Assembly (NCBI GenBank): GCA_030544685.1
Contig: CP086683.1
Span: 930,001-994,000, forward strand
Source: Pseudomonas sp. B21_DOA
Lineage (GTDB): Bacteria > Pseudomonadota > Gammaproteobacteria > Pseudomonadales > Pseudomonadaceae
Direction of reading: 5' to 3'
Length of the DNA: 64,000 nt
Shown here: positions 24,613-48,247 of the stretch, piece after piece
Position numbering within the stretch: the first letter of the stretch is position 1
Layout of the letters: each line of letters opens with the position of its first letter
Notes under the pieces: generated by a model
The model's database searches: none
Told to the model about the DNA's origin: nothing
What the model saw: only the letters and a program-made list of their open reading frames with translations
Program-made: the position numbers and the translations under genes

Positions 24613-24628
24613 GGGGATTGTGGATAAA

Positions 24629-25996
24629 TCAGGATTTTTTGATTTTTTCCGGGCGCTTCCAGCCATCGATGTTCTTCTGACGGGCTCGGCCAACCGCCAG
24701 CTGAGCGTTATCCACATTTTGCGTGATGGTAGAGCCAGCCGCAGTGGTTGCACCATTGGAGATATCCACAGGGGCAACCAGCGAGTTGTTGGAACCGATG
24801 AACACATCCGCGCCCAAAACAGTTTTCCACTTGTTGGCGCCATCGTAGTTGCAGGTGATGGTGCCAGCGCCGATGTTGGTGCGCGCGCCGATTTCGGCAT
24901 CGCCCAGGTAGGTTAGATGCCCAGCCTTGGCACCCTCGCCCATGTGCGCATTTTTGAGCTCAACGAAGTTACCCACATGGGCGCGCGCTTCGAGCACAGT
25001 GCCCGGGCGCAAACGCGAGAAGGGACCGGCGTCGCTGCCTTCACCGAGAATGGCACCTTCGATATGACTGTTGGCCTTGATGATCACGCCTTTGCGCAGG
25101 GTACTGTCCTTGATCACGCAGTTCGGGCCGATCTGTACGTCGTCTTCAATGATCACCTTGCCTTCAAGGATCACGTTGATATCGATCAGCACATCGCGGC
25201 CTACGCTGACTTCGCCACGTACGTCGAAACGGGCCGGGTCGCGCAGGGTAACGCCTTGAGCCATCAGGCGACGGCCGGCGCGCAACTGGTAATGACGTTC
25301 CAGTTCAGAGAGCTGCTTGCGATCATTGGCGCCCTGCACTTCCATCGGGTCGTGCGGTTGTTCGGTAGCCACGACCAAACCATCGCTGACCGCCATTTCG
25401 ATCACGTCGGTGAGGTAGTACTCGCCCTGCGCGTTGTTGTTCGACAGGCGACTCACCCAGTCAGCCAGGCGATCGGCCGGCACAGCGAGGATGCCGGTGT
25501 TGCCTTCGGTGATCGCACGTTGCGCTTCGCTGGCATCTTTGTGCTCGACGATTGCCGCGACCTTGCCGTCAGCATCACGCACGATGCGGCCGTAACCGGT
25601 CGGGTCATCCAGCTCAACAGTGAGCAAACCCATCTGCCCGGGCACGACATGCTTGAGCAGACGTCGCAGGGTTTCCACTTCAATCAGCGGCACATCGCCG
25701 TAGAGGATTAGCACGGTGCCCGCTTCGATGAACGGCACCGCTTGAGCGGTGGCATGGCCGGTGCCCAGTTGCTTGTCCTGCAACACGAAATTCAGGTCAT
25801 CAGCTGCCAGACGCTCCCGCACCGCATCGGCACCGTGCCCGATCACCACGTGGATGCGTTGTGGATCAAGTTGTCGGGCGCTGTGGATAACATGACCAAG
25901 CATGGAGTTGCCGGCAATCGGGTGCAGCACCTTGGGCAGCGCCGAACGCATGCGAGTGCCTTGACCGGCCGCGAGGATAACGATTTCGAGAGACAT
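24629..25996 (-). CDS. glmU: Bifunctional GlmU: GlcN-1-P acetyltransferase / GlcNAc-1-P uridylyltransferase
   Basis: At 455 residues, this has the family length. The N-terminal uridylyltransferase domain carries [11 protein letters not shown] and [12 protein letters not shown]; the C-terminal left-handed beta-helix acetyltransferase has hexapeptide repeats ([16 protein letters not shown]) and [17 protein letters not shown]. It makes UDP-GlcNAc for peptidoglycan and LPS, completing the path begun by glmS nearby. The start ATG at 25996 follows the ATP synthase operon terminator by about 65 bases, so it has its own promoter or receives read-through. Confidence 0.97.
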
Positions 25997-35077: not shown

Positions 35078-35722
35078 TCATGCCGTGCGGCGCAGTATCA
35101 GCAGATGGCGTTGGCCTTGGCAACCGGGGACGGCCAGGGCGTGTTCGCTATCGAGTTTGAAATCTGCCGGCAATGCTACCAGCTCATCGGCCGGATGAAC
35201 GCCCTTCATTGCCAGCCAGCGTGTATCGGCATCGCCCAAGTGGCGAGTCCAGTTGGTGAAGTTTTCCATGCTGCTGAAGGCCCGGGAAATGATCCTGTTG
35301 AATGGCTGCGCAGGCTGGAACGCTTCGACGCGACTGTGGATAACCTGCAAGTTATCCAGCTTCAATTCGAGCTTGACCTGGGTCAGGAAGCGGGTTTTCT
35401 TGCCGTTGCTGTCCAGACAGGTCACTTGCGAGTCCGGGTACAGGATCGCCAGCGGGATACCAGGCATGCCACCACCACTGCCAACGTCGAGCCAGCGACC
35501 GTTTTCGATGAACGACATCACGCTGAGACTATCGAGCAAGTGCCGCGAAACCATTTCGTCCGGATCGCGCACGGCGGTCAGGTTGTAAGCCTGATTCCAT
35601 TTGATCAACAGGGCCAGATAACCCAGCAGCAATTCGTGCTGAGTTTCTGTGAGATTGACACCGAGCTCGCGGGCTCCTGTGGATAACTCTTCGGCGTGTT
35701 GCGAAGTGACCTTGGCACTCAA
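35078..35722 (-). CDS. rsmG: 16S rRNA (guanine527-N7)-methyltransferase
   Basis: The 214-residue SAM enzyme (GidB) has motif [18 protein letters not shown] and the downstream [13 protein letters not shown]. It methylates G527 in the decoding centre; loss gives low streptomycin resistance in many bacteria. The ATG at 35722 overlaps the mnmG stop (ATGA), so it is coupled to mnmG, as usual near the origin. Two DnaA boxes lie in it (35335 and 35678). Confidence 0.97.
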
Positions 35723-37620
35723 GCGCTTTGCTCCAACTGACGGCCCGCGCCGCGTTTTTTCAAATGAATCATCAACAGCGAAATCGCTGCCGGGGTAACG
35801 CCCGGAATGCGCGAGGCCTGACCCAGGGTCTCGGGACGTGTGGCGCCGAGCTTGCTCTGGATCTCCTTGGACAGACCGGAAATGTTGGTGTAATCGATAT
35901 CCACAGGCAGTTTCGTGTCTTCGCTGGCGCGCAGACGAGCGATTTCGTCCTGTTGACGGTCGATGTAACCGGCGTACTTGGTCTTGATCTCAACCTGCTC
36001 GGCGACCTGTGGATCTTCTGCGCCCTGCCCGGTCACTTCGACCAGACCGGCGTAATCGATTTCCGGACGGCTCAACAGGTTGAGCAAATTGTATTCGTGG
36101 GTCAGCGGCGTGCCGAATTTCTCGGCAATCGCATCGCCCTGCGGGGTATTTGGCCGTACCCAAGTGCTTTTCAGGCGCTGCTCTTCGAGTTCAATGCTTT
36201 CGCGTTTCTTGCAGAAGGCCGCCCAGCGCGCGTCATCGACCAGACCAAGCTCGCGACCTTTTTCGGTCAGACGCAGGTCGGCGTTGTCCTCGCGCAGAAT
36301 CAAGCGGTACTCGGCGCGGGACGTGAACATGCGATACGGCTCTTGGGTACCGAGGGTGATCAGGTCGTCGACCAGAACGCCGATGTACGCTTCATCGCGG
36401 CGCGGACACCAGGCTTCTTTGCCCTTCGCGCGCAGTGCGGCGTTGGCCCCGGCGAGCAGACCTTGCGCACCCGCTTCTTCGTAGCCGGTGGTGCCGTTGA
36501 TCTGACCGGCGAAAAACAGACCGCCAATGACTTTGGTTTCCAGGCTGTACTTCAGGTCGCGCGGATCGAAGTAGTCGTACTCGATCGCATAACCCGGACG
36601 CACGATGTGTGCGTTTTCCATGCCGCGGATCGATTGCACGATCTGCAATTGCACGTCGAACGGCAGGCTTGTGGATATCCCGTTCGGGTACAGCTCATGG
36701 GTGGTCAGACCTTCCGGTTCGATGAACACCTGATGGCTTTCCTTGTCGGCAAAGCGGTGGATCTTGTCTTCGATCGATGGGCAATAACGCGGGCCGATGC
36801 CTTCGATTTCACCGGCAGCGGAATACATCGGCGAACGATCGAGGTTCGCCGCGATGATTTCGTGGGTGCGGGCATTGGTATGGGTGATCCAGCAGCTGAC
36901 CTGACGCGGATGCTGTTCTTTGTTGCCCATGAACGACATCACCGGAATCGGCGTATCGCCCGGTTGCTCGGTCATTACCGAGAAATCCACAGACTTGCCA
37001 TCAATGCGCGGCGGTGTACCGGTTTTCAAACGCCCGACACGCAATGGCAACTCACGCAGACGGTGGGCCAGAGCAATCGACGGTGGATCACCGGCGCGAC
37101 CGCCGGAGAAATTCTGCAAACCGATGTGGATAAGTCCGCCGAGGAAGGTACCGGTGGTCAACACCACGGAATCGGCGAAGAAACGCAGACCCATCTGTGT
37201 AACCACACCACGGACTTGCTCCTGCTCGACGATCAGGTCGTCAGCAGCCTGTTGAAAGATCCACAGGTTCGGCTGGTTTTCCAGTATTTCGCGGACAGCT
37301 GCCTTGTAGAGAATCCGGTCGGCTTGTGCACGGGTGGCCCGCACGGCCGGGCCTTTGCGGCTGTTCAACACGCGAAACTGGATGCCGCCCTTGTCGGTAG
37401 CCATGGCCATCGCGCCGCCGAGGGCATCGATTTCCTTGACCAGATGGCTTTTGCCGATGCCACCGATGGCCGGGTTGCAACTCATGGCGCCGAGGGTTTC
37501 CACGTTATGCGTCAGCAACAGGGTTTTTGCCCCCATGCGTGCTGACGCCAGTGCTGCCTCGGTACCGGCATGACCGCCGCCGATGACGATCACTTCAAAA
37601 CGGGAAGGGAAATCCACCAC
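35719..37620 (-). CDS. mnmG: tRNA uridine-5-carboxymethylaminomethyl modification enzyme MnmG (GidA)
   Basis: The 633-residue flavoprotein has the FAD dinucleotide fold at the N-terminus ([19 protein letters not shown]), the GidA signature [21 protein letters not shown] with its conserved Cys, and a helical C-terminus that binds MnmE. With MnmE it modifies the wobble uridine of tRNAs. It begins the mnmG-rsmG-parA-parB unit. Its partner mnmE is 4.6 kb away because the siderophore cassette and an oriC-like region lie between them. Confidence 0.98.
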
Positions 37621-38186
37621 GCACCTCGTGCCTGCTTAAGTAGGTCATTCAGGAAATAGTTGAGCTCAGGTTTCTGGACCTGGTCGGCAAGTATAGGGAC
37701 TTCGCCCTTTCTAAAGAACCCTTTGCACAAAATTTAACCAGCTGTGGAGAACTCGAGGTTAAAAGAATAAAAAGAGAGAAATTTATAAAACCTTTGTTTT
37801 TATGTTTATTCTTAGTGAGCACCGTTTCTGTGGATAGATCGCCACAAGCCTTATTTCACAAGCTGTACAGAGGTTTAAAACTCTGTGATCATGTGGCAAT
37901 GAGGTCCTTGGATAACCGCTGTAAGCCTGTGGATGAAAGGGTATGTTATCCACAGAGGGGTTTATATCCAGTTTTAAAGCCCGTTTATCAACTGACCTCA
38001 TTGGCAGTTATCCACAGGGCTTAACCCACAGAAAATCGCCTACATGGTTTTCCCGGACACAAGAAAAGCGCCAGCGAAGGGATCGGTGACGGTTGGCAAG
38101 CCAAGGGCAGAAAATGAAAAGGCTATTGTGAGAGGACGTTACAGAGGCTAATAATAGCCATTATCATTAACTCGCCAGTTTCTCCC
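37621..38186. other. oriC-like region upstream of mnmG (paralogue of the rpmH-dnaA origin)
   Basis: This gene-free 566-bp region has an AT-rich stretch (about 37750-37815) followed by DnaA boxes: two perfect TTATCCACA at 37946 and 38008, and near matches TGTGGATAG at 37829 and TGTGGATGA at 37928. Shared blocks TTCTGTGGATA (37826), TGTACAGAG (37864) and the two perfect boxes recur in the rpmH-dnaA gap at a constant offset of 8,555 bp. So the two regions are duplicates of one origin architecture. Activity of this copy is unproven. The right end also carries the promoter and Fur-like box of the sigma-factor gene. Confidence 0.8.
38150..38168. promoter_or_regulatory. Putative Fur box upstream of the ECF sigma gene
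   Basis: AATAATAGCCATTATCATT contains the NATWAT hexamers of the Fur consensus and lies 18 bases before the sigma-factor start at 38187. Iron repression of this type of sigma gene is well established in pseudomonads. The match is partial. Confidence 0.55.
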
Positions 38187-38693
38187 ATGCCCCTACCCGC
38201 CCACACAGCTGCGATCGAGCAAATCTACAAGCAACATCATTCGTGGCTATATGGCTGGCTCAAGGGCAAACTGCACAACGCCTGCGATGCAGCCGATGTG
38301 GCGCATGACACGTTTTTGCGAGTTCTGGCGGCGCGCAATGCAGCTCATATTCGTGAGCCAAGGGATTACCTGACGACCATTGCGCGCGGCTTGGTCATCG
38401 ACCGTTATAGGCGGTGGGCCATTGAAAGCGCTTATCTGCAGGCCCTCGCAGCTCGGCCGCAAGCGACAATTGTCAGCGAAGAAGACAGAGCGCTGATCAT
38501 TGAAACCCTGGTTGCTGTGGATAAAGCGTTAACCGGGCTGGGCACGCGGACACGGCAGATCTTCATGCTTTCGCAAGTCGACGGACTGACTTATCAACAG
38601 ATCGCCGTGCAATTGAGGGTCTCGCTGACCACTGTGAAAAAACACATGATCCGCGCCCTGACTGAATGCGCCCTGATCATGGCGCAACCATGA
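38187..38693 (+). CDS. FecI-type ECF sigma factor
   Basis: The 168-residue protein has sigma region 2 (IEQIYKQHHSWLYGWLKGKL, DAADVAHDTFLRVLA) and region 4 (LTYQQIAVQLRVSLTTVKKHMIRALTEC). FecI-type iron-starvation sigma factors direct transcription of the adjoining TonB receptor when the siderophore binds. A Fur-like box precedes it, and its stop overlaps the fecR-type start (ATGA). The ribosome site is weak. A perfect DnaA box lies inside the gene at 38516. Confidence 0.93.
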   Translation: MPLPAHTAAIEQIYKQHHSWLYGWLKGKLHNACDAADVAHDTFLRVLAARNAAHIREPRDYLTTIARGLVIDRYRRWAIESAYLQALAARPQATIVSEEDRALIIETLVAVDKALTGLGTRTRQIFMLSQVDGLTYQQIAVQLRVSLTTVKKHMIRALTECALIMAQP

Positions 38694-39640
38694 TGGCCGC
38701 CGCTTCAGACCGTCAGGTATTCGAGACTGCCGCCAGTTGGTACGTGCAGTTTCAATCCCAGCCACCGAGCCTTGCCGAACAAAAGGCCTGGCAGCTGTGG
38801 ATAGACAGCGATCCGGCGCATCTGGCGGCGTGGAACCAGATGGAACAATTGCAGCGCCACCTCGGTACGCTGCCGCAGGATCTGAAACGACGTGCGCTCA
38901 ATAGCGGCCAACAACGACGCCAGGTACTCAAACTGCTACTGCTTGCAGCGGGAACAGGTTTCGTTGGCTGGAACGTTCAACGACACATATCCCTCGGCAA
39001 CGTCTGGGCCGACTATAAAACCGGTGTAGGCCAGCGTCGCACCATCAGCCTGGCCGATGGTAGCCAGATCCAGCTCAACACCAACTCGGCCATTGATGTC
39101 TCTTTCGACGCAGCACAACGCCTGATCCAACTGCGTGCCGGTGAAATCCTCGTCCAAACCGGCAAGCTTGGCGATCAGCGGCCGTTCTATGTGCAAACCC
39201 GTGACGGGCGGATACAAGCATTGGGCACCCGGTTCTCGGTGCATCAGATGCCGAACTCAACCCGGGTCGGCGTGCTGGAGGATCGAGTCAGCGTCCAACC
39301 TGCGCACTCATCCACCGCTGCGCAAATCCTGATAGCAGGCGAAGGCGCGGATTTCGACAGTCAGCATATCGGCCTCAGTCGTCCCTTCCAGTCATCAGAA
39401 GTGGCGTGGATCAACGGCCAATTGATCGTCCTGAATGCGCGCTTGGGCGATGTCATCGCAGAATTGGGTCGCTATCGCAGCGGTGTATTGCATTGCGATC
39501 GCCGCGCCCGGGATCTACGGGTTTCCGGGACTTTCCGGCTCGATTCGACCGACACAGTGTTGGCCAACCTTCGGGCTTCGTTGCCGATCAACGTCCGCTA
39601 TTTCAGTCGTTACTGGGTGTCGATCAGCCACAGCGTTTGA
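38690..39640 (+). CDS. FecR-family anti-sigma / signal-transfer membrane protein
   Basis: The ATG at 38690 overlaps the sigma stop and begins MMAAASDRQVFETAASWYV, giving 316 residues. The N-terminal cytoplasmic part (DUF4880-like, LAEQKAWQLWIDSDPAHLAAWNQME) binds the sigma factor. One membrane helix (VLKLLLLAAGTGFVGWNV) is followed by the periplasmic FecR domain (GVGQRRTISLADGSQIQLNTNSAIDV) and a C-terminal STN-like end that meets the receptor. It passes the signal of ligand-bound receptor to the sigma factor. Confidence 0.92.
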   Translation: MMAAASDRQVFETAASWYVQFQSQPPSLAEQKAWQLWIDSDPAHLAAWNQMEQLQRHLGTLPQDLKRRALNSGQQRRQVLKLLLLAAGTGFVGWNVQRHISLGNVWADYKTGVGQRRTISLADGSQIQLNTNSAIDVSFDAAQRLIQLRAGEILVQTGKLGDQRPFYVQTRDGRIQALGTRFSVHQMPNSTRVGVLEDRVSVQPAHSSTAAQILIAGEGADFDSQHIGLSRPFQSSEVAWINGQLIVLNARLGDVIAELGRYRSGVLHCDRRARDLRVSGTFRLDSTDTVLANLRASLPINVRYFSRYWVSISHSV

Positions 39641-39758
39641 TCAAAAAAAGCCTGGGGAAAAATAATCGCACAGAGGGTTATCTTTTTTCGCCCTGACCCG
39701 GCCCTACAGGTAATCGCGATCAACGCGGCTCTTCGCCACCTTCAGGGTTAACCCACAC

Positions 39759-42194
39759 ATGCGTCTTCCCACGTTCCGTCAGCGCTTTTCTCCACACTGC
39801 ATTGCATACAGCTTATTGATGGCTAGCGCTGCGTCTTGTCTGGTGATCAGCAACAGCGCCTTCGCGGCGTCGACATCCCAGCGCTTCGCCATCGCCGCCG
39901 GCCCGCTGGATAGTGCCTTGAGCCAGTTCGCCGCTGCCGCGAATGTAATTCTGTCGTTCTCGCCGCAGCAGACCAGCCGCTTGCGCAGTGCCGGGCTTAA
40001 CGGCGACTTCAGCGTCGAACAAGGTTTCGCTCGATTGCTGCAAGGCTCGGGTTTACAGGCCGTGCCACAAGCACCCGGCAGTTACATTCTGCAGAACGTG
40101 CCCAGCGGTGACTCCTTGGAGCTGGCGCCGACCAACATCAACGCGCAGTTGGCCAATCCAATGGATCTGGATTACGCCGCGGACGTCGGCTACAAGGCGC
40201 AAAACAGCCGGATCGGTACGAAAACCAGTACCCCGCTGTCGGAAACACCGCGTTCGGTGTCAGTGGTAACCGGACAACGCATCAAGGATCAGAAATCCCA
40301 GACACTCACCGACGTCCTCGGCTATGTACCGGGGATCTTCGCCCCACCGTTCGCCGCCGGCGACAGTCTGGCGGGGGACTTGTTCTATATCCGCGGCTTC
40401 AACGCCACCGATTACGGCTACGGTCTGCTCCGAGATGGACTGCGCGTGCAGGGCAATCGCTATGACACCAGCACCGAGCCGTACGGACTTGAACGGGTCG
40501 AGGTATTCCGTGGCCCTTCTTCGCTGCTGTATGGTGAAAATGCGCCGGGCGGTCTGGTCAATCTGGTCAGTAAGCGTCCGACTGCCGCGCCTCAGGGCGA
40601 AGTGCAGCTGGGCTATGGCTCGAACAATCGCCGGCAAATCGGCGTCGACGTCTCCGGCCCGCTCAATGACAGCGGCAACGTTCTCGGACGCGTGGTGATG
40701 CTGGGGCGCAAATCCGATACCCAGACCGATCACGTGCCTGACGACCGCATTTATATCGCCCCTTCGCTGTCCCTGAATTTCGACGACTTCAATACGCTGA
40801 CACTGCTGGCCAACTACCAGAAAGACCACACCAACATGGAGCTCGGTCTGCCGGCCGCCGGCACGTTGCTGAGCAATCCCAACGGGAAATTGTCCAAAGG
40901 CACCATGCTCGGCGACCCGGACTGGAATACTTTCGAACGGGAAACCTGGAGCACCGGTTACGAGTTCAGCCACTCGTTCAACGATGACTGGCAGTTCCGC
41001 CAGAACTCGCGCTACATGCAGTCGCGCATCACCCGCCACGAAACCTGGCCGGGCAATCTGAACAACGCCGGCTTCGGCACGCGGTTGAACATGACCGCCT
41101 ATGATCGCTTCAACAAATCCATGGTGTATTCGCTGGATAACCAGCTCGAAGGCAAATTCCAGGCTGGCGATCTGGAGAACACCGTGCTGTTTGGCGCCAG
41201 CTACGATCGCACCTCGTTCAACCAGGACTGGAATGCCGGCATTGTCGGGCCGATCGACATCTACAACCCGGTCTACCTGCGTGATCCGACGACACCGATA
41301 GCTGTGCAGAACACGTTGCTCGAGCAGCAGATGAAAGGCGTTTATGCACAGATCCAGAGCAAATACGATCATTGGCTGTTCCTGCTCGGCGGACGTCAAG
41401 ACTGGGTCGACAGCGACTTCCGCGACAAAGTGGCGCGAGGCAGCAACATCAGCTCCGAGGACAGGAAGTTCACCTATCAGGGCGGCGTGATGTATCAGTT
41501 CGACAACGGCATGACGCCATATGTCAGCTACTCCACTGCGTTCGTGCCGGTGCAGCAGATTTCCAATGCCGGCGCACCGCTTGATCCGATCACCAGCAGC
41601 CAGTACGAAGTGGGCTTGAAGTACGAACCGATCGGCTGGGACACCGCGTTCACCGCTTCGGTGTATGACCTGCGCAAGAAGGACGACACCTATTTCGACG
41701 CAACCACGTCGACCTATCGCCAAGTGGGTGAAAGCCGCGCCAAGGGTGTGGAGTTGGAACTCAACAGCAATCTGACGCAGAACCTCAATGTCACGGCGGC
41801 CTATACCTACACCGACGCGAAGATCACCAAGGATGCAGCGACATCGCTGGTTAAAGGCCATCAAATGACCGGCGTGCCACGTAATCAGGCCTCGGTCTGG
41901 GCGAAATATCGCTTCCTCGACAGTGATCTGAAAGGCTTGTATGTGGCCGGTGGCGTACGCTATTTCGACAGTGCGTTTGCCTACACCTCGCCTTCTCTGT
42001 ACGGAAAGCTGGATGCCGGCGACGTCACATTGATCGACGCGGCTGTTGGATATCAGATCGATACACACTGGAGTGTCGATCTGAATGCGAAGAACCTGTT
42101 CGACAAGGAATATGTGTCGGGCTGCAACGACGCAGGCCGCTGCTATTGGGGCGAGGATCGTACTTTGCTCGGTACGGTGTCCTATAACTGGTGA
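39759..42194 (+). CDS. TonB-dependent siderophore receptor with signalling (STN) domain
   Basis: The 811-residue outer-membrane protein has a signal peptide (about residues 1-36, ending SNSAFA), then an STN domain (about 40-112, FAIAAGPLDSALSQFAAAANVILSF) that contacts FecR. The plug domain (TPLSETPRSVSVVTGQRIKDQ ... RVEVFRGPSSLLYGENAPGG) and the beta-barrel end in a C-terminal aromatic residue (LLGTVSYNW). The end CNDAGRCYWGEDRT with paired Cys resembles hydroxamate-siderophore (ferrichrome/ferrioxamine-like) receptors; the ligand is inferred. It is under the FecI/FecR pair just upstream and may take up a xenosiderophore. Confidence 0.93.
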   Translation: MRLPTFRQRFSPHCIAYSLLMASAASCLVISNSAFAASTSQRFAIAAGPLDSALSQFAAAANVILSFSPQQTSRLRSAGLNGDFSVEQGFARLLQGSGLQAVPQAPGSYILQNVPSGDSLELAPTNINAQLANPMDLDYAADVGYKAQNSRIGTKTSTPLSETPRSVSVVTGQRIKDQKSQTLTDVLGYVPGIFAPPFAAGDSLAGDLFYIRGFNATDYGYGLLRDGLRVQGNRYDTSTEPYGLERVEVFRGPSSLLYGENAPGGLVNLVSKRPTAAPQGEVQLGYGSNNRRQIGVDVSGPLNDSGNVLGRVVMLGRKSDTQTDHVPDDRIYIAPSLSLNFDDFNTLTLLANYQKDHTNMELGLPAAGTLLSNPNGKLSKGTMLGDPDWNTFERETWSTGYEFSHSFNDDWQFRQNSRYMQSRITRHETWPGNLNNAGFGTRLNMTAYDRFNKSMVYSLDNQLEGKFQAGDLENTVLFGASYDRTSFNQDWNAGIVGPIDIYNPVYLRDPTTPIAVQNTLLEQQMKGVYAQIQSKYDHWLFLLGGRQDWVDSDFRDKVARGSNISSEDRKFTYQGGVMYQFDNGMTPYVSYSTAFVPVQQISNAGAPLDPITSSQYEVGLKYEPIGWDTAFTASVYDLRKKDDTYFDATTSTYRQVGESRAKGVELELNSNLTQNLNVTAAYTYTDAKITKDAATSLVKGHQMTGVPRNQASVWAKYRFLDSDLKGLYVAGGVRYFDSAFAYTSPSLYGKLDAGDVTLIDAAVGYQIDTHWSVDLNAKNLFDKEYVSGCNDAGRCYWGEDRTLLGTVSYNW

Positions 42195-42196
42195 AT

Positions 42197-42235
42197 AAAA
42201 AAAGGGCTGTGGATGAATTATCCACAGCCCTTTTT
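42197..42235. terminator. Bidirectional terminator built from two inverted DnaA boxes
   Basis: GGGCTGTGGAT (42204-42214) and ATCCACAGCCC (42220-42230) form an 11-bp stem with loop GAATT, flanked by A7 on the left and T5 on the right. It lies between the converging receptor and mnmE genes. The arms contain TGTGGATGA (42208) and a perfect DnaA box TTATCCACA (42218), so the terminator could also bind DnaA. Confidence 0.92.
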
Positions 42236-43601
42236 ATTTGCCGATGCAGAAGCTGGAGAAAATCCTTCCGAGCAAATCATCAGAGCTGAACGCCCCGGTA
42301 ATTTCACCCAGGGAATGCTGAGCCTGGCGCAAATCCTCGGCGAGCAACTCGCCAGCCCCGGCCAGGGTGAGTTGCGCGCGGCCATGTTTCAATGCCGCGC
42401 TGGCGTGGCGCAGTGCTTCCAGGTGCCGGCGACGTGCGCTGAAACTGCTCTCCGACGTCTGCTCGTAACCCATGCACGCCTTGAGGTGATCACGCAGCAG
42501 GTCGAGGCCTTCGGCAGACTTGGCGCTGAGACTGATGGTCACGTGGCCGTCGTCACTGGTTTCCAGAACAATCGCTTCGCCGGACAGATCGGCTTTGTTG
42601 CGGATCAGGGTGACTTTCGTCGGATCCGGCCGAGACTCGAGGAATTCCGGCCACAAGGCAAAAGGATCCAGTGCCTCTGGTGCGGTCGCATCGACTACCA
42701 ATAGAACCCGATCCGCTTCACCGATGGCTTTCAAGGCCCGTTCCACACCGATCTTTTCCACATGATCATCGGTGTCACGCAGTCCCGCAGTATCGACGAC
42801 GTGCAACGGCATGCCGTCGATGTGGATATGTTCGCGCAGGATATCCCGCGTGGTGCCAGCAATCTCGGTAACGATGGCGGCCTCACGACCGGCCAAAGCA
42901 TTCAACAGGCTGGATTTTCCGGCATTCGGCCGACCAGCGATGACGACGGTCATGCCATCACGCAATAACGCACCCTGTCCCGCTTCGCGGAGCACTGTGG
43001 ATAACTCATCGCGTACTTTGTCGAGCATGCTTAATACGTGGCCGTCGGCGAGAAAATCGATTTCCTCTTCCGGGAAGTCGATGGCGGCTTCGACGTAGAT
43101 ACGCAAGCCGATCAGTTGCTCGGTCAGGTTATGCACACGCTGGGAAAACGCACCCTGCAATGAACGCAGCGCATTGCGCGCAGCCTGGGCAGAACTGGCT
43201 TCGATCAAGTCGGCGATTGCCTCGGCCTGGGCCAGATCGAGTTTGTCATTGAGGAAGGCGCGCTCGCTGAATTCACCCGGACGGGCAAGACGGCAGCCCA
43301 GTTCCAGACAGCGTTTGAGCAACATGTCCAGCACGATCGGGCCGCCGTGGCCTTGGAGTTCCAGCACGTCTTCGCCTGTGAAAGAGTTCGGCCCCGGAAA
43401 ATACAAAGCCAGACCTTCATCCAGCACCTGCCGGTCGTCACTGAAAAACGGCCCGTAATGGGCGTAACGCGGTTTCAGTTCTCGGCCGCTGATGGCTTTT
43501 GCCGCCACGCTGGCCAACGGCCCCGAAATACGGACGATGCCCACACCGCCGCGCCCTTGAGCGGTGGCGACGGCGGCGATGGTTTCACGGGGTGTGCTCA
43601 T
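42234..43601 (-). CDS. mnmE: tRNA modification GTPase MnmE (TrmE)
   Basis: From the ATG at 43601 ([19 protein letters not shown]) the protein has 455 residues. It has the N-terminal formyl-THF-binding domain, a GTPase domain with G1 [12 protein letters not shown]2 TTRD, G3 DTAG and G4 NKAD, and the C-terminal catalytic motif CIGK at the very end. With MnmG it modifies wobble uridines. Readings upstream of 43601 add six unsupported residues. It shares the terminator at 42197-42235 with the receptor gene. Confidence 0.97.
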
Positions 43602-43632
43602 AAAGCGGCATCCAGACAAAAGTGGCAGATAG

Positions 43633-43659
43633 CAAAACGCCCCACTAGGGGGCGTTTTG
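43633..43659 (-). terminator. Terminator between yidC and mnmE
   Basis: CAAAACGCCCC (43633-43643) and GGGGCGTTTTG (43649-43659) form an 11-bp stem with a five-base loop. The A4/T4 ends of the stem give a short U-tract after yidC. It is followed upstream by a perfect DnaA box (43667). Confidence 0.75.
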
Positions 43660-43682
43660 AGTGGTGTTATCCACAGTGCAAG

Positions 43683-45365
43683 TTACGCCTCGGCTTTTTT
43701 CGTTGCCGCTTCGATCTTACGCGTGATGTACCACTGTTGTGCAATCGACAGACAGTTGTTCACAACCCAGTACAGCACCAGACCCGCCGGGAACCACAGG
43801 AAGAAGAAGGTGAAAATGATTGGCATCATTTTCATGACCTTCGCCTGCATCGGATCCGGAGGCGTCGGGTTCAGCTGCTGCTGGATGAACATGGTTGCGC
43901 CCATGATGATCGGCAGAATGAAGAACGGATCCTTGATCGACAGGTCGGTGATCCACAGCATGAACGGCGCCTGACGCATTTCCACGCTTTCCAGCAGAAC
44001 CCAGTACAGCGACAGGAAGACCGGCATCTGCACGAGGATCGGCAAGCAGCCGCCCAGTGGATTGATCTTCTCTTTCTTGTACAGCTCCATCATGGCCTGC
44101 GACATTTTCTGCCGGTCATCGCCATGTTGCTCTTTCAGCGCAGCCAGTTTCGGTGCCACGGCACGCATGCGCGCCATCGATTTGTAGCTGGCTGCCGACA
44201 GCGGGAAGAAGATCCCTTTGATCAGCATGGTCAGGAAGATGATCGACCAGCCCCAGTTACCGACGATGGCGTGGATATGTTGCAGCAGCCAGAAGATCGG
44301 CTGGGCAATGAACCACAGAATGCCGTAGTCGACGGTCAGTTCCAGACCTGGGGACAACTCTTTCAGTACAGCCTGGCTTTTCGGACCGGCGTACAGCACA
44401 GCGCTGGTTTCAACTTTTGCGCCTGGAGCAGCGGTCAAAGTAGGACCGGTGTAACCGATGATGTAGTTGCCTTTGCTGTCCTTACGGGTCTGGACGATGT
44501 TGTTTTCGCCCTTGGCCGGGATCCACGCGGTCACGAAGTAGTGCTGCAGCCAGGCTACCCATCCACCGGTGACAGTTTCCTTGAGCTGCGCCTTGTCCAT
44601 GTCCTTCATCGACACTTTCTTGTACGGCTCGGAACTTGTCCACAGGGCAGCGCCGAGGTAAGTCGCGGTGCCAGTAGCCGTGGTCGACGACGGATCAGCA
44701 CTGGCGTCTCGCTTCAACTGGGCAAACATTGCGCCGTTCCAGGGCTGAGCACTCTGGTTATCCACAATGTAGGAGACGGCAACGTCATACAGGCCACGTT
44801 TCAAGGTGAAACGCTTGATGTAATTCACGCCGTCCTTGCTGAATTTCAGGTCAACGACGAGTTGATCCTGACCGTCAGCCAGTTGGTAAACCTTCTTCTC
44901 CGAGGAATAAACCGGACGACCGGCCGGGTTTGCGTCCGGACCGTTGGTACCGATCAGACCGCTTTGCGCCAGATACACACGTTCGCCGCCGTTATCGAAC
45001 AGCTGGAACGGAACGTCAGGACGGTCCTGACGGCGTGGATACAGAGGCAGAGTCAGTTGCGCAACGTCGCCACCCTGTGGATCGATTGCCAGATCGAGCA
45101 CATCGGTCTTGACCTGAATCAGGTCCTTGCTGGCAGCAACCGGCGTTTCCGCTGGTGCACTGGTATCGCTGGCGGCGCGCGGAATATCGTCACTGGCGGC
45201 AGTATTTGTGCCAGTGGCGGTGTCCGGCAAACCGGATGTAGTCGTACTGGAAGCAACATTCTGAGTCGGCAGGGCAGCCTGGCCATAATCCTGGTTCCAT
45301 TTAAGAACCATGACGTAGGACACGATTGCCAGGGCGACGATCAGGATCGTGCGTTTGATATCCAT
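43683..45365 (-). CDS. yidC: Membrane protein insertase YidC (Oxa1 family)
   Basis: The 560-residue protein has an N-terminal membrane helix (TILIVALAIVSYVMVL), a large periplasmic beta-domain (about residues 60-340), and the conserved five-helix core with NWGWSIIFLTMLIKGIFFPLS, KMSQAMMELYKKEKINPLGGCLPILVQMPVFLSLYW. It inserts and folds inner-membrane proteins alone or with SecYEG. It lies two bases after yidD. The C-terminus is basic for ribosome contact. Confidence 0.98.
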   Translation of the reverse strand: MDIKRTILIVALAIVSYVMVLKWNQDYGQAALPTQNVASSTTTSGLPDTATGTNTAASDDIPRAASDTSAPAETPVAASKDLIQVKTDVLDLAIDPQGGDVAQLTLPLYPRRQDRPDVPFQLFDNGGERVYLAQSGLIGTNGPDANPAGRPVYSSEKKVYQLADGQDQLVVDLKFSKDGVNYIKRFTLKRGLYDVAVSYIVDNQSAQPWNGAMFAQLKRDASADPSSTTATGTATYLGAALWTSSEPYKKVSMKDMDKAQLKETVTGGWVAWLQHYFVTAWIPAKGENNIVQTRKDSKGNYIIGYTGPTLTAAPGAKVETSAVLYAGPKSQAVLKELSPGLELTVDYGILWFIAQPIFWLLQHIHAIVGNWGWSIIFLTMLIKGIFFPLSAASYKSMARMRAVAPKLAALKEQHGDDRQKMSQAMMELYKKEKINPLGGCLPILVQMPVFLSLYWVLLESVEMRQAPFMLWITDLSIKDPFFILPIIMGATMFIQQQLNPTPPDPMQAKVMKMMPIIFTFFFLWFPAGLVLYWVVNNCLSIAQQWYITRKIEAATKKAEA

Positions 45366-45367
45366 GA

Positions 45368-45613
45368 TTACTCGGCCATCGAAGAAGAACGGGAGGTAGG
45401 GACAGGTGGAACCGGGTCATAACCACCGGGATTCCACGGATGACAGCGACCTAAACGACGAAAGGTCAGCCAGCCACCGCGCAGAAGGCCATGATTTTCA
45501 ATGGCTTCATACGCGTAGCAGGAACAACTGGGGTAGAAGCGACAGTGGCTGGCCATTAGAGGACTAATGGCATAGCGATAAAACTGGATCGGAACGAGGG
45601 CCAGTTTACGCAT
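45368..45613 (-). CDS. yidD: Membrane protein insertion efficiency factor YidD
   Basis: The 81-residue protein has the family core [32 protein letters not shown] with three conserved Cys, and [23 protein letters not shown]. It is a membrane-associated helper of YidC-dependent insertion. It overlaps the rnpA stop by eight bases and is followed by yidC, the classical rpmH-rnpA-yidD-yidC order. Confidence 0.96.
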
Positions 45614-46006
45614 CGGTACTGTCTACCCCTACAGTTTCGGTTTTGACTGCCGGAACGGGCTTGTTGCGTGCCAGACGCTTCCAGAGCTTGCCGAAATGCT
45701 GAATCAATTCGGGGTTTTCTACATCACCCAAACCTTTGCGCGCGACGATAACGATGTCCCAGCCGACCAGTGAATCCTGGTGCAGACGGAACGATTCGCG
45801 CATCAGACGTTTGAGGCGATTGCGTTCAACGGAGAGCTTTACACTCTTTTTCCCGATAACCAGCCCTAGACGGGGGTGATCAAGATCGTTGTCGCGTGCA
45901 AGGAGCAGGAGGTTTTTCCCCGGAACCTTGCCGGTAGGGGAGTCAAAGACTGCCTTGAAATGCCGGGGGTAAGCAGACGCTTTTCCCGACTGAAGTCCTG
46001 ACTCAC
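45606..46006 (-). CDS. rnpA: Ribonuclease P protein component (frameshifted as read)
   Basis: RnpA assists the RNase P ribozyme in tRNA 5' maturation. The N-terminal part ([13 protein letters not shown]) and the C-terminal part ([27 protein letters not shown]) are in different frames. Adding one G to the five-G run 45965-45969 joins them through [26 protein letters not shown] and the RNP motif [13 protein letters not shown], for 133 residues. I place the start at the GTG at 46006, 16 bases after rpmH; GGAG directly abuts it, so the exact start is uncertain. The gene is essential, so the break is almost surely a sequence error. Confidence 0.88.
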
Positions 46007-46022
46007 CTCCAGTACCGGATTA

Positions 46023-46157
46023 TCAAACTGCCAGACGCGCACGACCTTTGGCGCGACGACGCGACAGGACTGCGCGGCCGTTCTTGGTAGCCATGCGAGC
46101 ACGGAAACCGTGGGTACGAGCGCGTTTGATAGTGCTTGGTTGGAAAGTACGTTTCAT
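46023..46157 (-). CDS. rpmH: 50S ribosomal protein L34
   Basis: The 44-residue, strongly basic protein reads [20 protein letters not shown] at its start and ends [12 protein letters not shown], the universal L34 sequence. It sits between oriC and rnpA, transcribed away from dnaA, the classic arrangement. Confidence 0.97.
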
Positions 46158-46723
46158 GTCGTGTTACCTGGTTCGTCCACAACGGGCCGGAATGGCCCCC
46201 GTTTTAAGAGACCGGGGATTCTAGAGAAAGCAAGCCCTCAGGTCAATTTCCAACCAGCGTTTCCTTATAAATAGATCGAGGCAGGGTTTGCGCTCGAATG
46301 CCTGTCAGCCAGATATAAAAATAAAGAAGGGAATTATTTAAAGCTTTTTTGTAAAGCTTGTAAAAGCTAGACACGCCATCTTCTGTGGATAACTGCTATC
46401 AGGCCTTATTCTGTGCGGTGTACAGAGAATGACAACTACAGTGGAAAACCGTGTTCAGCCTGTGCTGCGCTGTCGGATAAGCTGTGCGTGGAATGGGCTG
46501 TTATCCACAGGCTGGTTATCCACCGAGTTTAGCCCCTACTTGTCCAGTGCCCTCATAGGTGTTTATCCACAGGGCTTATTCACATGCCGTTGGTCGCCTT
46601 TTAATGCTTTAACGCATTGATAAATGATGGTGAGGGACCTACCTGCATGTGGATAAGTGAACCGCTCGCCGCTACAATGGCCGCTTGTTTTTGCCTCACC
46701 GGCTTTCAACTTAGGGGATATCC
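46158..46723. other. oriC: Replication origin oriC (rpmH-dnaA intergenic region)
   Basis: This 566-bp gap between divergent rpmH and dnaA has an AT-rich stretch (about 46310-46370, likely unwinding element) and DnaA boxes. These are perfect ones at 46384 (inverted), 46501, 46563 and 46648 (inverted), and near ones TTATCCACC at 46516 and TTATTCACA at 46576. The position and boxes match the established Pseudomonas origin. It also holds the dnaA and rpmH promoters, which I could not place exactly. A second, paralogous copy lies upstream of mnmG. Confidence 0.92.
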
Positions 46724-48247
46724 GTGTCAGTGGAACTTTGGCAGCAGTGCGTAGAGCTTTTGCGCGAAGAGCTGCCTGCCCAACAATTCAACACCTGGAT
46801 CCGTCCACTACAGGTCGAAGCCGAAGGCGACGAGTTGCGCGTCTACGCACCCAATCGTTTCGTGCTGGACTGGGTCAACGAAAAGTACCTGGGCCGCGTC
46901 CTCGAATTGCTCGATGAACATGGCAATGGCTCGACGCCGTCGCTGTCCTTGTTAATAGGCAGCAAACGCAGCTCGGCACCTCGTGCCGCACCCAATGCAC
47001 CACTGGCGGCCGCGCAGGTTGCTCAGGCGCAGGCCAACAACGCGCCGTCGAGCAACCCGGCACCAGCGCCCGCGCCTGCTCCGGCCAAGCGTTCCACGCA
47101 GAAAACCGCTGAAGTCAGTGAAGAGCCTTCCCGCGACAGCTTCGACCCGATGGCCGGTGCCGCCTCGCAGCAGGCGCCGGTTCGCGCCGAACAGCGCACC
47201 GTGCAGGTAGAAGGTGCGCTCAAGCACACCAGCTATCTCAACCGCACGTTCACCTTCGAGAATTTTGTTGAAGGTAAATCCAACCAGCTCGCCCGTGCGG
47301 CGGCCTGGCAGGTGGCGGACAATCCCAAGCACGGTTACAACCCGCTCTTCCTTTATGGTGGCGTCGGCTTGGGTAAAACCCACTTGATGCACGCAGTGGG
47401 CAACCATCTATTAAAGAAGAATCCGAATGCCAAGGTCGTGTACCTGCATTCCGAGCGTTTCGTGGCCGACATGGTCAAGGCGCTGCAACTGAACGCGATC
47501 AATGAATTCAAGCGTTTCTACCGTTCGGTGGACGCCTTGCTGATCGACGATATTCAGTTCTTCGCCCGCAAGGAGCGCTCCCAGGAAGAGTTTTTCCACA
47601 CCTTCAACGCTCTGCTTGAAGGTGGCCAGCAGGTCATTCTCACCAGTGACCGCTACCCGAAAGAAATCGAAGGCCTTGAAGAACGTCTCAAATCCCGCTT
47701 TGGCTGGGGCTTGACCGTTGCCGTCGAGCCGCCTGAGCTGGAAACCCGTGTGGCGATTCTGATGAAGAAGGCCGATCAGGCCAAAGTCGAGCTGCCCCAT
47801 GACGCCGCGTTCTTCATTGCCCAGCGCATCCGCTCGAACGTCCGCGAACTGGAAGGCGCGCTGAAACGCGTGATCGCCCACTCGCACTTCATGGGCCGCG
47901 ACATCACCATCGAGCTGATTCGCGAATCCCTGAAAGACTTGTTGGCGTTGCAGGACAAACTGGTCTCTGTGGATAACATTCAGCGAACTGTCGCCGAATA
48001 CTACAAGATCAAGATCTCCGATCTGCTGTCCAAGCGCCGTTCGCGCTCGGTAGCACGTCCGCGTCAGGTGGCCATGGCGTTGTCCAAGGAACTTACCAAC
48101 CACAGCCTGCCGGAAATCGGCGATGTGTTTGGCGGCCGCGACCACACTACGGTGCTGCACGCTTGCCGCAAGATCAATGAACTTAAGGAATCCGACGCGG
48201 ACATCCGCGAGGACTACAAGAACCTGCTGCGTACACTGACCACTTGA
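46724..48247 (+). CDS. dnaA: Chromosomal replication initiator DnaA
   Basis: The 507-residue protein starts at a GTG (46724), preceded by AGGGGAT. Domain I is about 1-85 ([22 protein letters not shown]), domain II a Pro/Ala-rich linker (about 86-170). Domain III is the AAA+ core with Walker A GGVGLGKT (212-219) and Walker [10 protein letters not shown]. Domain IV has the box-binding [15 protein letters not shown] near residue 471. It melts oriC and loads the helicase. A perfect DnaA box at 47968 lies inside its own coding sequence. dnaN follows after 39 bases. Confidence 0.99.

Follow-up and report, generated by a model that had tools for sequence, protein, structure and literature searches.

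A bacterial chromosome is usually assumed to have a single replication origin. The chromosome of Pseudomonas sp. B21_DOA raises the question of why two origin-like arrays of DnaA boxes lie on either side of the mnmE-yidC-rnpA-rpmH block, and what the second of them does. The window analyzed here is a stretch of 64,000 nucleotides (contig CP086683.1, positions 930,001 to 994,000), and the two arrays are referred to as the M copy, the mnmG-side block at 37820-38040, and the D copy, the rpmH-dnaA block at 46375-46595. A DnaA box was counted with at most one mismatch to TTATCCACA unless stated otherwise. The comparison of the two copies supports the view that they are paralogous by common descent, as a duplication would leave them, and M, judged by its strict conservation, is probably a working, toned-down partner of D and not a leftover.

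A first-pass annotation of the window had described six ordered blocks shared by the two gaps, every pair being 8,555 bp apart, and all six were found. Aligned without gaps at this offset, M and D were identical at 119 of 221 positions, while the next-best among 63,280 plus-strand placements of 37820-38040 in the window reached 83 (mean 54.3, standard deviation 6.4; positions overlapping 37820-38040 itself within 250 bp were skipped). The alignment of the two regions extends well past the 9-mer boxes: blastn gave a 105-bp gapped alignment of M and D with 72% identity and an E-value of 1e-9, and outside the DnaA boxes the copies agree at 71 of 147 positions, which argues for homology beyond shared boxes. 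Over 36 genomes, the non-box M-D identity averaged 47%, compared with a mean of 25% and a maximum of 35% when D was slid by 5-60 bp. Against the whole genome of the window's organism (a single contig of 5.94 Mb), D as a query found only itself and M at E ≤ 0.001.

Both copies have the layout expected of an oriC, namely an R1/R4-like box pair about 180 bp apart, at 179 bp in each case, with an AT-rich stretch outside R1. The AT-rich stretches that had been pointed out in both regions were recovered as well (Table 1). A pair consisting of an inverted box with at most one mismatch and a direct box with at most two, 178-180 bp apart, was found on the two strands of the window only in M and D. The gap upstream of mnmG contains five boxes and the rpmH-dnaA gap six, at least three being the number asked of an oriC. 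Among 6,118 other 566-bp stretches of the window, 172 had three or four boxes, 38 exactly four and none five; one four-box cluster lies at 24619-24969.

The two copies were then followed in relatives, using genomes that were drawn automatically and subsequently chosen by contig position. The genus set comprised the window and 40 loci picked from 59 searched genomes, contig ends being avoided, and the named set comprised 42 Pseudomonadaceae loci (from 80 named loci), which may share species with the genus set. The M and D profiles, used with a cut of 15 bits, were built from the genus set, so matches within that set follow from how the profiles were made, whereas the counts for the named and family loci are independent apart from shared species. 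The register of an inverted box at 0 and direct boxes at +117 and +179 was present in all 41 M copies of the genus set, the three boxes together having 1-3 mismatches, and in 36/38 D copies with 0-2 mismatches, those of loci L033 and L034 being slightly shifted; 300 mononucleotide shuffles fitted the same register with 10-15 mismatches. A match to the M profile together with the 179-bp box pair was found in all 41 genus loci and all 42 named loci. The D profile matched at every readable locus (39/39 genus and 40/40 named), with a 179-180 bp pair in 37 and 38 of them, respectively. In the other genera of the family, the M profile matched in 28 of 32 loci, 27 of these with a 178-180 bp pair, and the D profile in 24 of 27. 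Counted per genus, D was present in 17 of the 18 readable genera, and M, whose absence from all relatives the first-pass annotation had named as telling against a pair, in 18 of 19 (in g202, in one of two genomes).

M was as well conserved as D, the mean identity being 0.707 for M-M and 0.691 for D-D comparisons (36 genomes). Over 41 aligned gaps, conservation on the M side was 0.72-0.89 in all twelve 30-bp steps from 37681 to 38040 and 0.38-0.50 beyond, a drop that comes partly from inserts in some genomes. The M-D identity was 0.534 within a genome and 0.529 between genomes, an excess reached by 87 of 2,000 permutations, and concerted evolution through gene conversion was rejected as a main force. 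Since the likeness is barely higher within genomes, the copies must have diverged before the genus and evolve separately.

Conservation applies to the register within each copy, not to the spacing between the copies. The constant offset of the first-pass annotation held for every pair, but it only means that the alignment is gap-free, and the figure of 8,555 bp is particular to this lineage because an insert with FecI, FecR and a TonB-dependent receptor separates the copies. The mnmG-dnaA distance, readable in 37 of 40 genus loci, ranged from 4,805 to 9,139 bp: 21 loci fell within 4.8-5.2 kb, six within 5.4-8.9 kb, and the ten that carry the receptor lay at about 9.1 kb. The receptor was full length in 10 of the 40 fetched genus loci; mnmE, yidC and dnaA were also matched in relatives. 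Inserts in the M-mnmE gap were seen in the window (38187-42194), in L041 (1503-9498) and in L014 (6584-9218), M staying on the mnmG side in all three. The open reading frames of the L041 insert resemble, as judged by eye, a type I restriction-modification system, and those of the L014 insert are without an assigned kind. In L025, a C-terminal receptor remnant (1223-1543) adjoins mnmE, which suggests that this lineage once had the insert and lost it.

The individual boxes of M and D were compared in the in-register copies of the genus and named sets, that is, 83/83 M and 72/77 D copies, five D copies being dropped. The R1-like box was perfect in 24/83 M copies versus 64/72 D copies, and the R4-like box in 4/83 versus 70/72. 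A box at +132 was found in none of the 83 M copies versus 64/72 in D, and one at +99 in 75/83 M copies versus 7/72 in D, while the central M box was perfect in 54/83. The window is atypical for M at the R4-like box, since that box is perfect there. On the AT-rich side, the mean AT content was 0.80 in M (-75 to -15 from the R1-like box, 83 copies) and 0.75 in D. GATC occurs twice in the M core and is absent from the D core. The Pseudomonas R1 motif of gammaBOriS is the M variant, which was present in 54 of 104 M copies versus 2 of 82 D copies. The word TGTACAGAG, which is not a DnaA box, is common to M and D (37864-37872 and 46419-46427) and stands in both genus consensus lines.

The E. coli unwinding element lies on the mnmG side of oriC. 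In E. coli K-12 (NC_000913), oriC adjoins mnmG as M does, R1 and R4 are 180 bp apart compared with 179 bp in M and D, and the inverted R1 is on the mnmG side there too. The E. coli rpmH-dnaA gap contains a single box, in contrast to the D array of Pseudomonas. The D core profile aligned with E. coli oriC over profile positions 5-194 at 17.8 bits, a score that none of 200 box-keeping shuffles reached. Wider sampling covered the order (76 genomes searched and 40 loci fetched, of which one belonged to the family and 39 were tabulated, 35 with both sites readable) and the class (140 genomes searched, 80 loci fetched). The outgroup sites at M and D numbered 220; plus-strand matches were 24 with the M core profile, 25 with the D core profile and 29 with the combined one, minus-strand matches 3, 1 and 3, respectively, and none came from six decoy sets. 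When the boxes were kept and the rest shuffled, 0/220 outgroup sequences matched any of the three core profiles in each of three trials.

At least three boxes were present at both sites in 17 of the 35 readable loci of the order, only at D in 11, only at M in three and at neither in four; control stretches taken from the loci of the order and of the named outgroup reached this number in 6 of 1,159 cases. Beyond the order, at least three boxes were found in 4/79 class-level M sites and in 0/21 named beta-type records. As to the polarity of the duplication, a tree of 76 copies, sampled as 12 M and 12 D copies drawn at random from the genus plus the family, order, named and window copies, separated genus M from genus D, with the family and order copies mixed at depth. 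Of the matching outgroup M sites, 15 scored higher with the M core profile and nine, E. coli among them, with the D core profile (L248, which favors neither, is omitted, and L051 and L250, with identical scores, may be one organism). For the matching outgroup D sites, the numbers were five and four, respectively, omitting the second rows L195 and L196, and L080, which favors neither. The rpmH-dnaA gaps of two loci from other families, L072 (G120, f33) and L186 (G074, f17), matched the Pseudomonas origin profiles; the mnmG site of G074 (L078) is without a box.

In Pseudomonas aeruginosa, a member of the same family as the window's organism, two autonomously replicating elements were characterised (Yee and Smith 1990, Smith et al. 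1991, via PMC4403523), of which only one was reported as essential in the laboratory (Jiang et al. 2006, via PMC4403523). The place of the second element, its paralogy, geometry and spread are not stated in PMC4403523; we infer that it would be the M site. An orisome review counts P. aeruginosa among the members having extra central sites (accessible part of PMC4451416). In the accessible descriptions of the databases, DoriC 10 reports two predicted origins in some Gammaproteobacteria, the gidA one being retained, and gammaBOriS counts two oriC sequences in 105 chromosomes and a single one in 355; these parts neither name the chromosomes with double calls nor discuss paralogy, geometry or a functional pair. 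The bipartite origins of Bacillus subtilis and Helicobacter pylori likewise consist of two neighboring DnaA-box clusters, and there dnaA is the usual spacer, up to about 2 kb (PMC4285127, accessible part). Here, in contrast, the spacer is mnmE-yidC-rnpA-rpmH and not dnaA, with an offset of 8,555 bp in the window, and an AT-rich side is found on both M and D. In E. coli rnhA and rnhAB mutants, ultraviolet light induces a DnaA-dependent initiation zone bordering dnaA (PMC12000880, accessible part), which would be compatible with a two-site history. No description of M-D paralogy or of the 179-bp register was found in the literature searched, subscription papers being mostly outside reach.

What, then, does M do? 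We put the chances at about even that M is a second origin module for DnaA, complete but of lower affinity, that serves as an auxiliary to D or lies dormant. Its layout runs from an AT-rich stretch on the mnmG side, the candidate unwinding element, through the inverted R1-like box and on through direct boxes to the R4-like box 179 bp away, and on such a layout DnaA would be expected to bind and assemble the same kind of complex as on D. Because the outer boxes of M mostly deviate from consensus by one base and the +132 box is missing, DnaA would be loaded on M less often than on D, or later; unwinding and the order of firing are predicted in the same way, and M may serve as an auxiliary origin or remain dormant, holding DnaA as well. 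Several observations weigh against this reading. M was absent from g204 (L289, L290 and L314; 3/3 loci) and from one of the two g202 genomes (L287), and is therefore dispensable. The M and combined core profiles gave no match to E. coli oriC. The skew signal was not clear-cut: at four-fold sites of mnmE and yidC it was +0.13 across 67 loci of the Pseudomonadaceae, which agrees with a start at D, the other comparison groups being small (1 to 7) and scattered, and the GC skew of the 64-kb window itself was noisy. Moreover, the mnmG promoter may add to the conservation of M, PMC4403523 does not equate the dispensable P. aeruginosa element with the mnmG site, and the weak boxes of M would equally fit a DnaA-holding or regulatory site.

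The strongest rival to an auxiliary or dormant origin is a cooperating pair, in which M and D are halves of one bipartite origin, DnaA cooperates across mnmE-yidC-rnpA-rpmH and only D opens; we consider it rather unlikely. Two genera in which dnaA has moved speak in its favor, since M and D still flank mnmE-yidC-rpmH in g198 (G275; dnaA at C3:78,724-80,160, about 57 kb from rpmH near 21.6 kb) and in g208 (G285; dnaA at C1:380,814-382,289, about 24 kb from rpmH near 405.2 kb). The same arrangement fits the first-pass proposal of an origin duplicated or split around that block. With no box cluster beside dnaA, g198 and g208 had been candidates for genera with M only, which was rejected as D had stayed beside rpmH. 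The 17 order genomes with box clusters at both sites also point to a pair, as do the genomes that lost M: where the rpmH side was readable, D scored below 15 bits in 3/3 loci (no match in L287 and L316, 14.1 bits in L315) versus 0/24 other family D loci, which suggests that the copies work as a pair. This co-loss, however, concerns two lineages only, L315 is barely under the cut, and the D sites of L287, L315 and L316 still hold 3-5 boxes, that of L316 also a 179-bp box pair. When three genomes of g204 and one of g202 were searched with the D sequence, no match came up, an empty answer that is not proof of absence. Further against a bipartite origin are the variable mnmG-dnaA distance, the more than 8 kb that separate mnmE alone from M in L041, the usual dnaA spacer of the known cases and the reported dispensability of one of the two P. 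aeruginosa elements.

The weaker outer boxes, the position upstream of mnmG and the often perfect central box would also suit a site that holds DnaA or regulates, either a datA-like sink or a point of DnaA control over mnmG transcription, and that never opens. Sites of the datA/DARS type consist of DnaA boxes and an IHF site, without an unwinding element, and the AT-rich side of M speaks against such a type; neither would a holding site need the fixed 179-bp spacing or the non-box homology to D, and we judge this explanation unlikely. The surroundings bear on it in two ways. Perfect TTATCCACA boxes numbered 27 in the window, whereas 100 dinucleotide shuffles had 0.21 on average and never more than 2, and 21 of the 27 lie outside both gaps (22100-62163) versus one for the reversed word. 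The whole genome has 132 versus 17 for the reversed word, 27 of the 132 falling within about 1.1% of the genome, and across the 42 named loci of the family, 796 kb in which the gaps were masked, there are 299, at least two each, versus one reversed. Judging from this distribution, it is plausible that DnaA is held near the origin generally, so that holding may matter; with so many perfect boxes nearby, a weak-box sink at M is less needed and would add little. The field of boxes leaves our estimate for this explanation unchanged. If M were the decaying relic of an origin once in use, its off-consensus outer boxes and its loss in two lineages would be explained, and an origin 'no longer used' has been raised for P. 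aeruginosa (PMC4403523). We nevertheless find a relic improbable because M is as conserved as D; the 179-bp pair is retained in 83/83 copies, and conservation drops only after 38040. Convergence on one DnaA-complex geometry is the least credible explanation, and we regard it as extremely improbable: geometry alone could be selected, the R1-R4 distance of E. coli being nearly the same, but the non-box identity exceeds that of any slid alignment, and box-keeping shuffles of the outgroup sites matched no profile whereas the real sites did. In this the first-pass annotation, which had called independent convergence unlikely, was borne out.

Table 1. Positions of the two DnaA-box arrays and neighboring genes in the window.
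Feature	Position	Strand	Remark
mnmG (gidA)	35719..37620	-	transcribed away from M; MnmG query matches at 99%
M conserved element upstream of mnmG (AT-rich side and DnaA-box array)	37681..38040	+	conservation across 41 aligned M gaps
M most AT-rich 60 bp (82%), candidate unwinding element, mnmG side	37759..37818	.	
M R1-like box CTATCCACA, 1 mismatch	37829..37837	-	same variant in 57/83 M copies
M box at +99, TCATCCACA, 1 mismatch, M-typical	37928..37936	-	
M box at +117, TTATCCACA, perfect	37946..37954	+	
M R4-like box at +179, TTATCCACA, perfect in window	38008..38016	+	
Insert between M and mnmE: FecI-type sigma factor, FecR, TonB-dependent receptor	38187..42194	+	
mnmE, yidC, yidD-like open reading frame, rnpA, rpmH block between the copies	42234..46157	-	rnpA and yidD putative
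D most AT-rich 60 bp (77%), rpmH side	46314..46373	.	
D R1-like box, perfect	46384..46392	-	
D box at +117, perfect	46501..46509	+	
D box at +132, TTATCCACC, without M counterpart	46516..46524	+	
D R4-like box at +179, perfect	46563..46571	+	
D box at +192, TTATTCACA	46576..46584	+	
Perfect box near dnaA	46648..46656	-	putative promoter role; E. coli rpmH-dnaA gap also with one perfect box
dnaA, right of D	46724..48247	+	

Within the block between the copies, rnpA appears to be split over two frames near its start (about 45940-46010), what we take to be the N-terminal residues of RnpA sitting in a different frame from the remainder. An assembly error is the likely cause, since the genome completeness is 95.3%.

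Taken beyond the genus, M and D allow a possible, though doubtful, history in which the gammaproteobacterial origin was long a pair, an mnmG module and an rpmH module cooperating, of which the Enterobacteria would have kept the mnmG one as in E. coli oriC, others the rpmH-dnaA one, and Pseudomonas both, still used as a single cooperating origin. If true, an ancestral pair would explain how the main origin could move from dnaA to mnmG, or the reverse, without passing through a lethal stage, and the M-D pair makes this movement of oriC in evolution testable. For the Pseudomonadaceae themselves, a homologous second module with weaker boxes, present in nearly all genera sampled, turns the role of a conserved spare origin into a question that can be tested.

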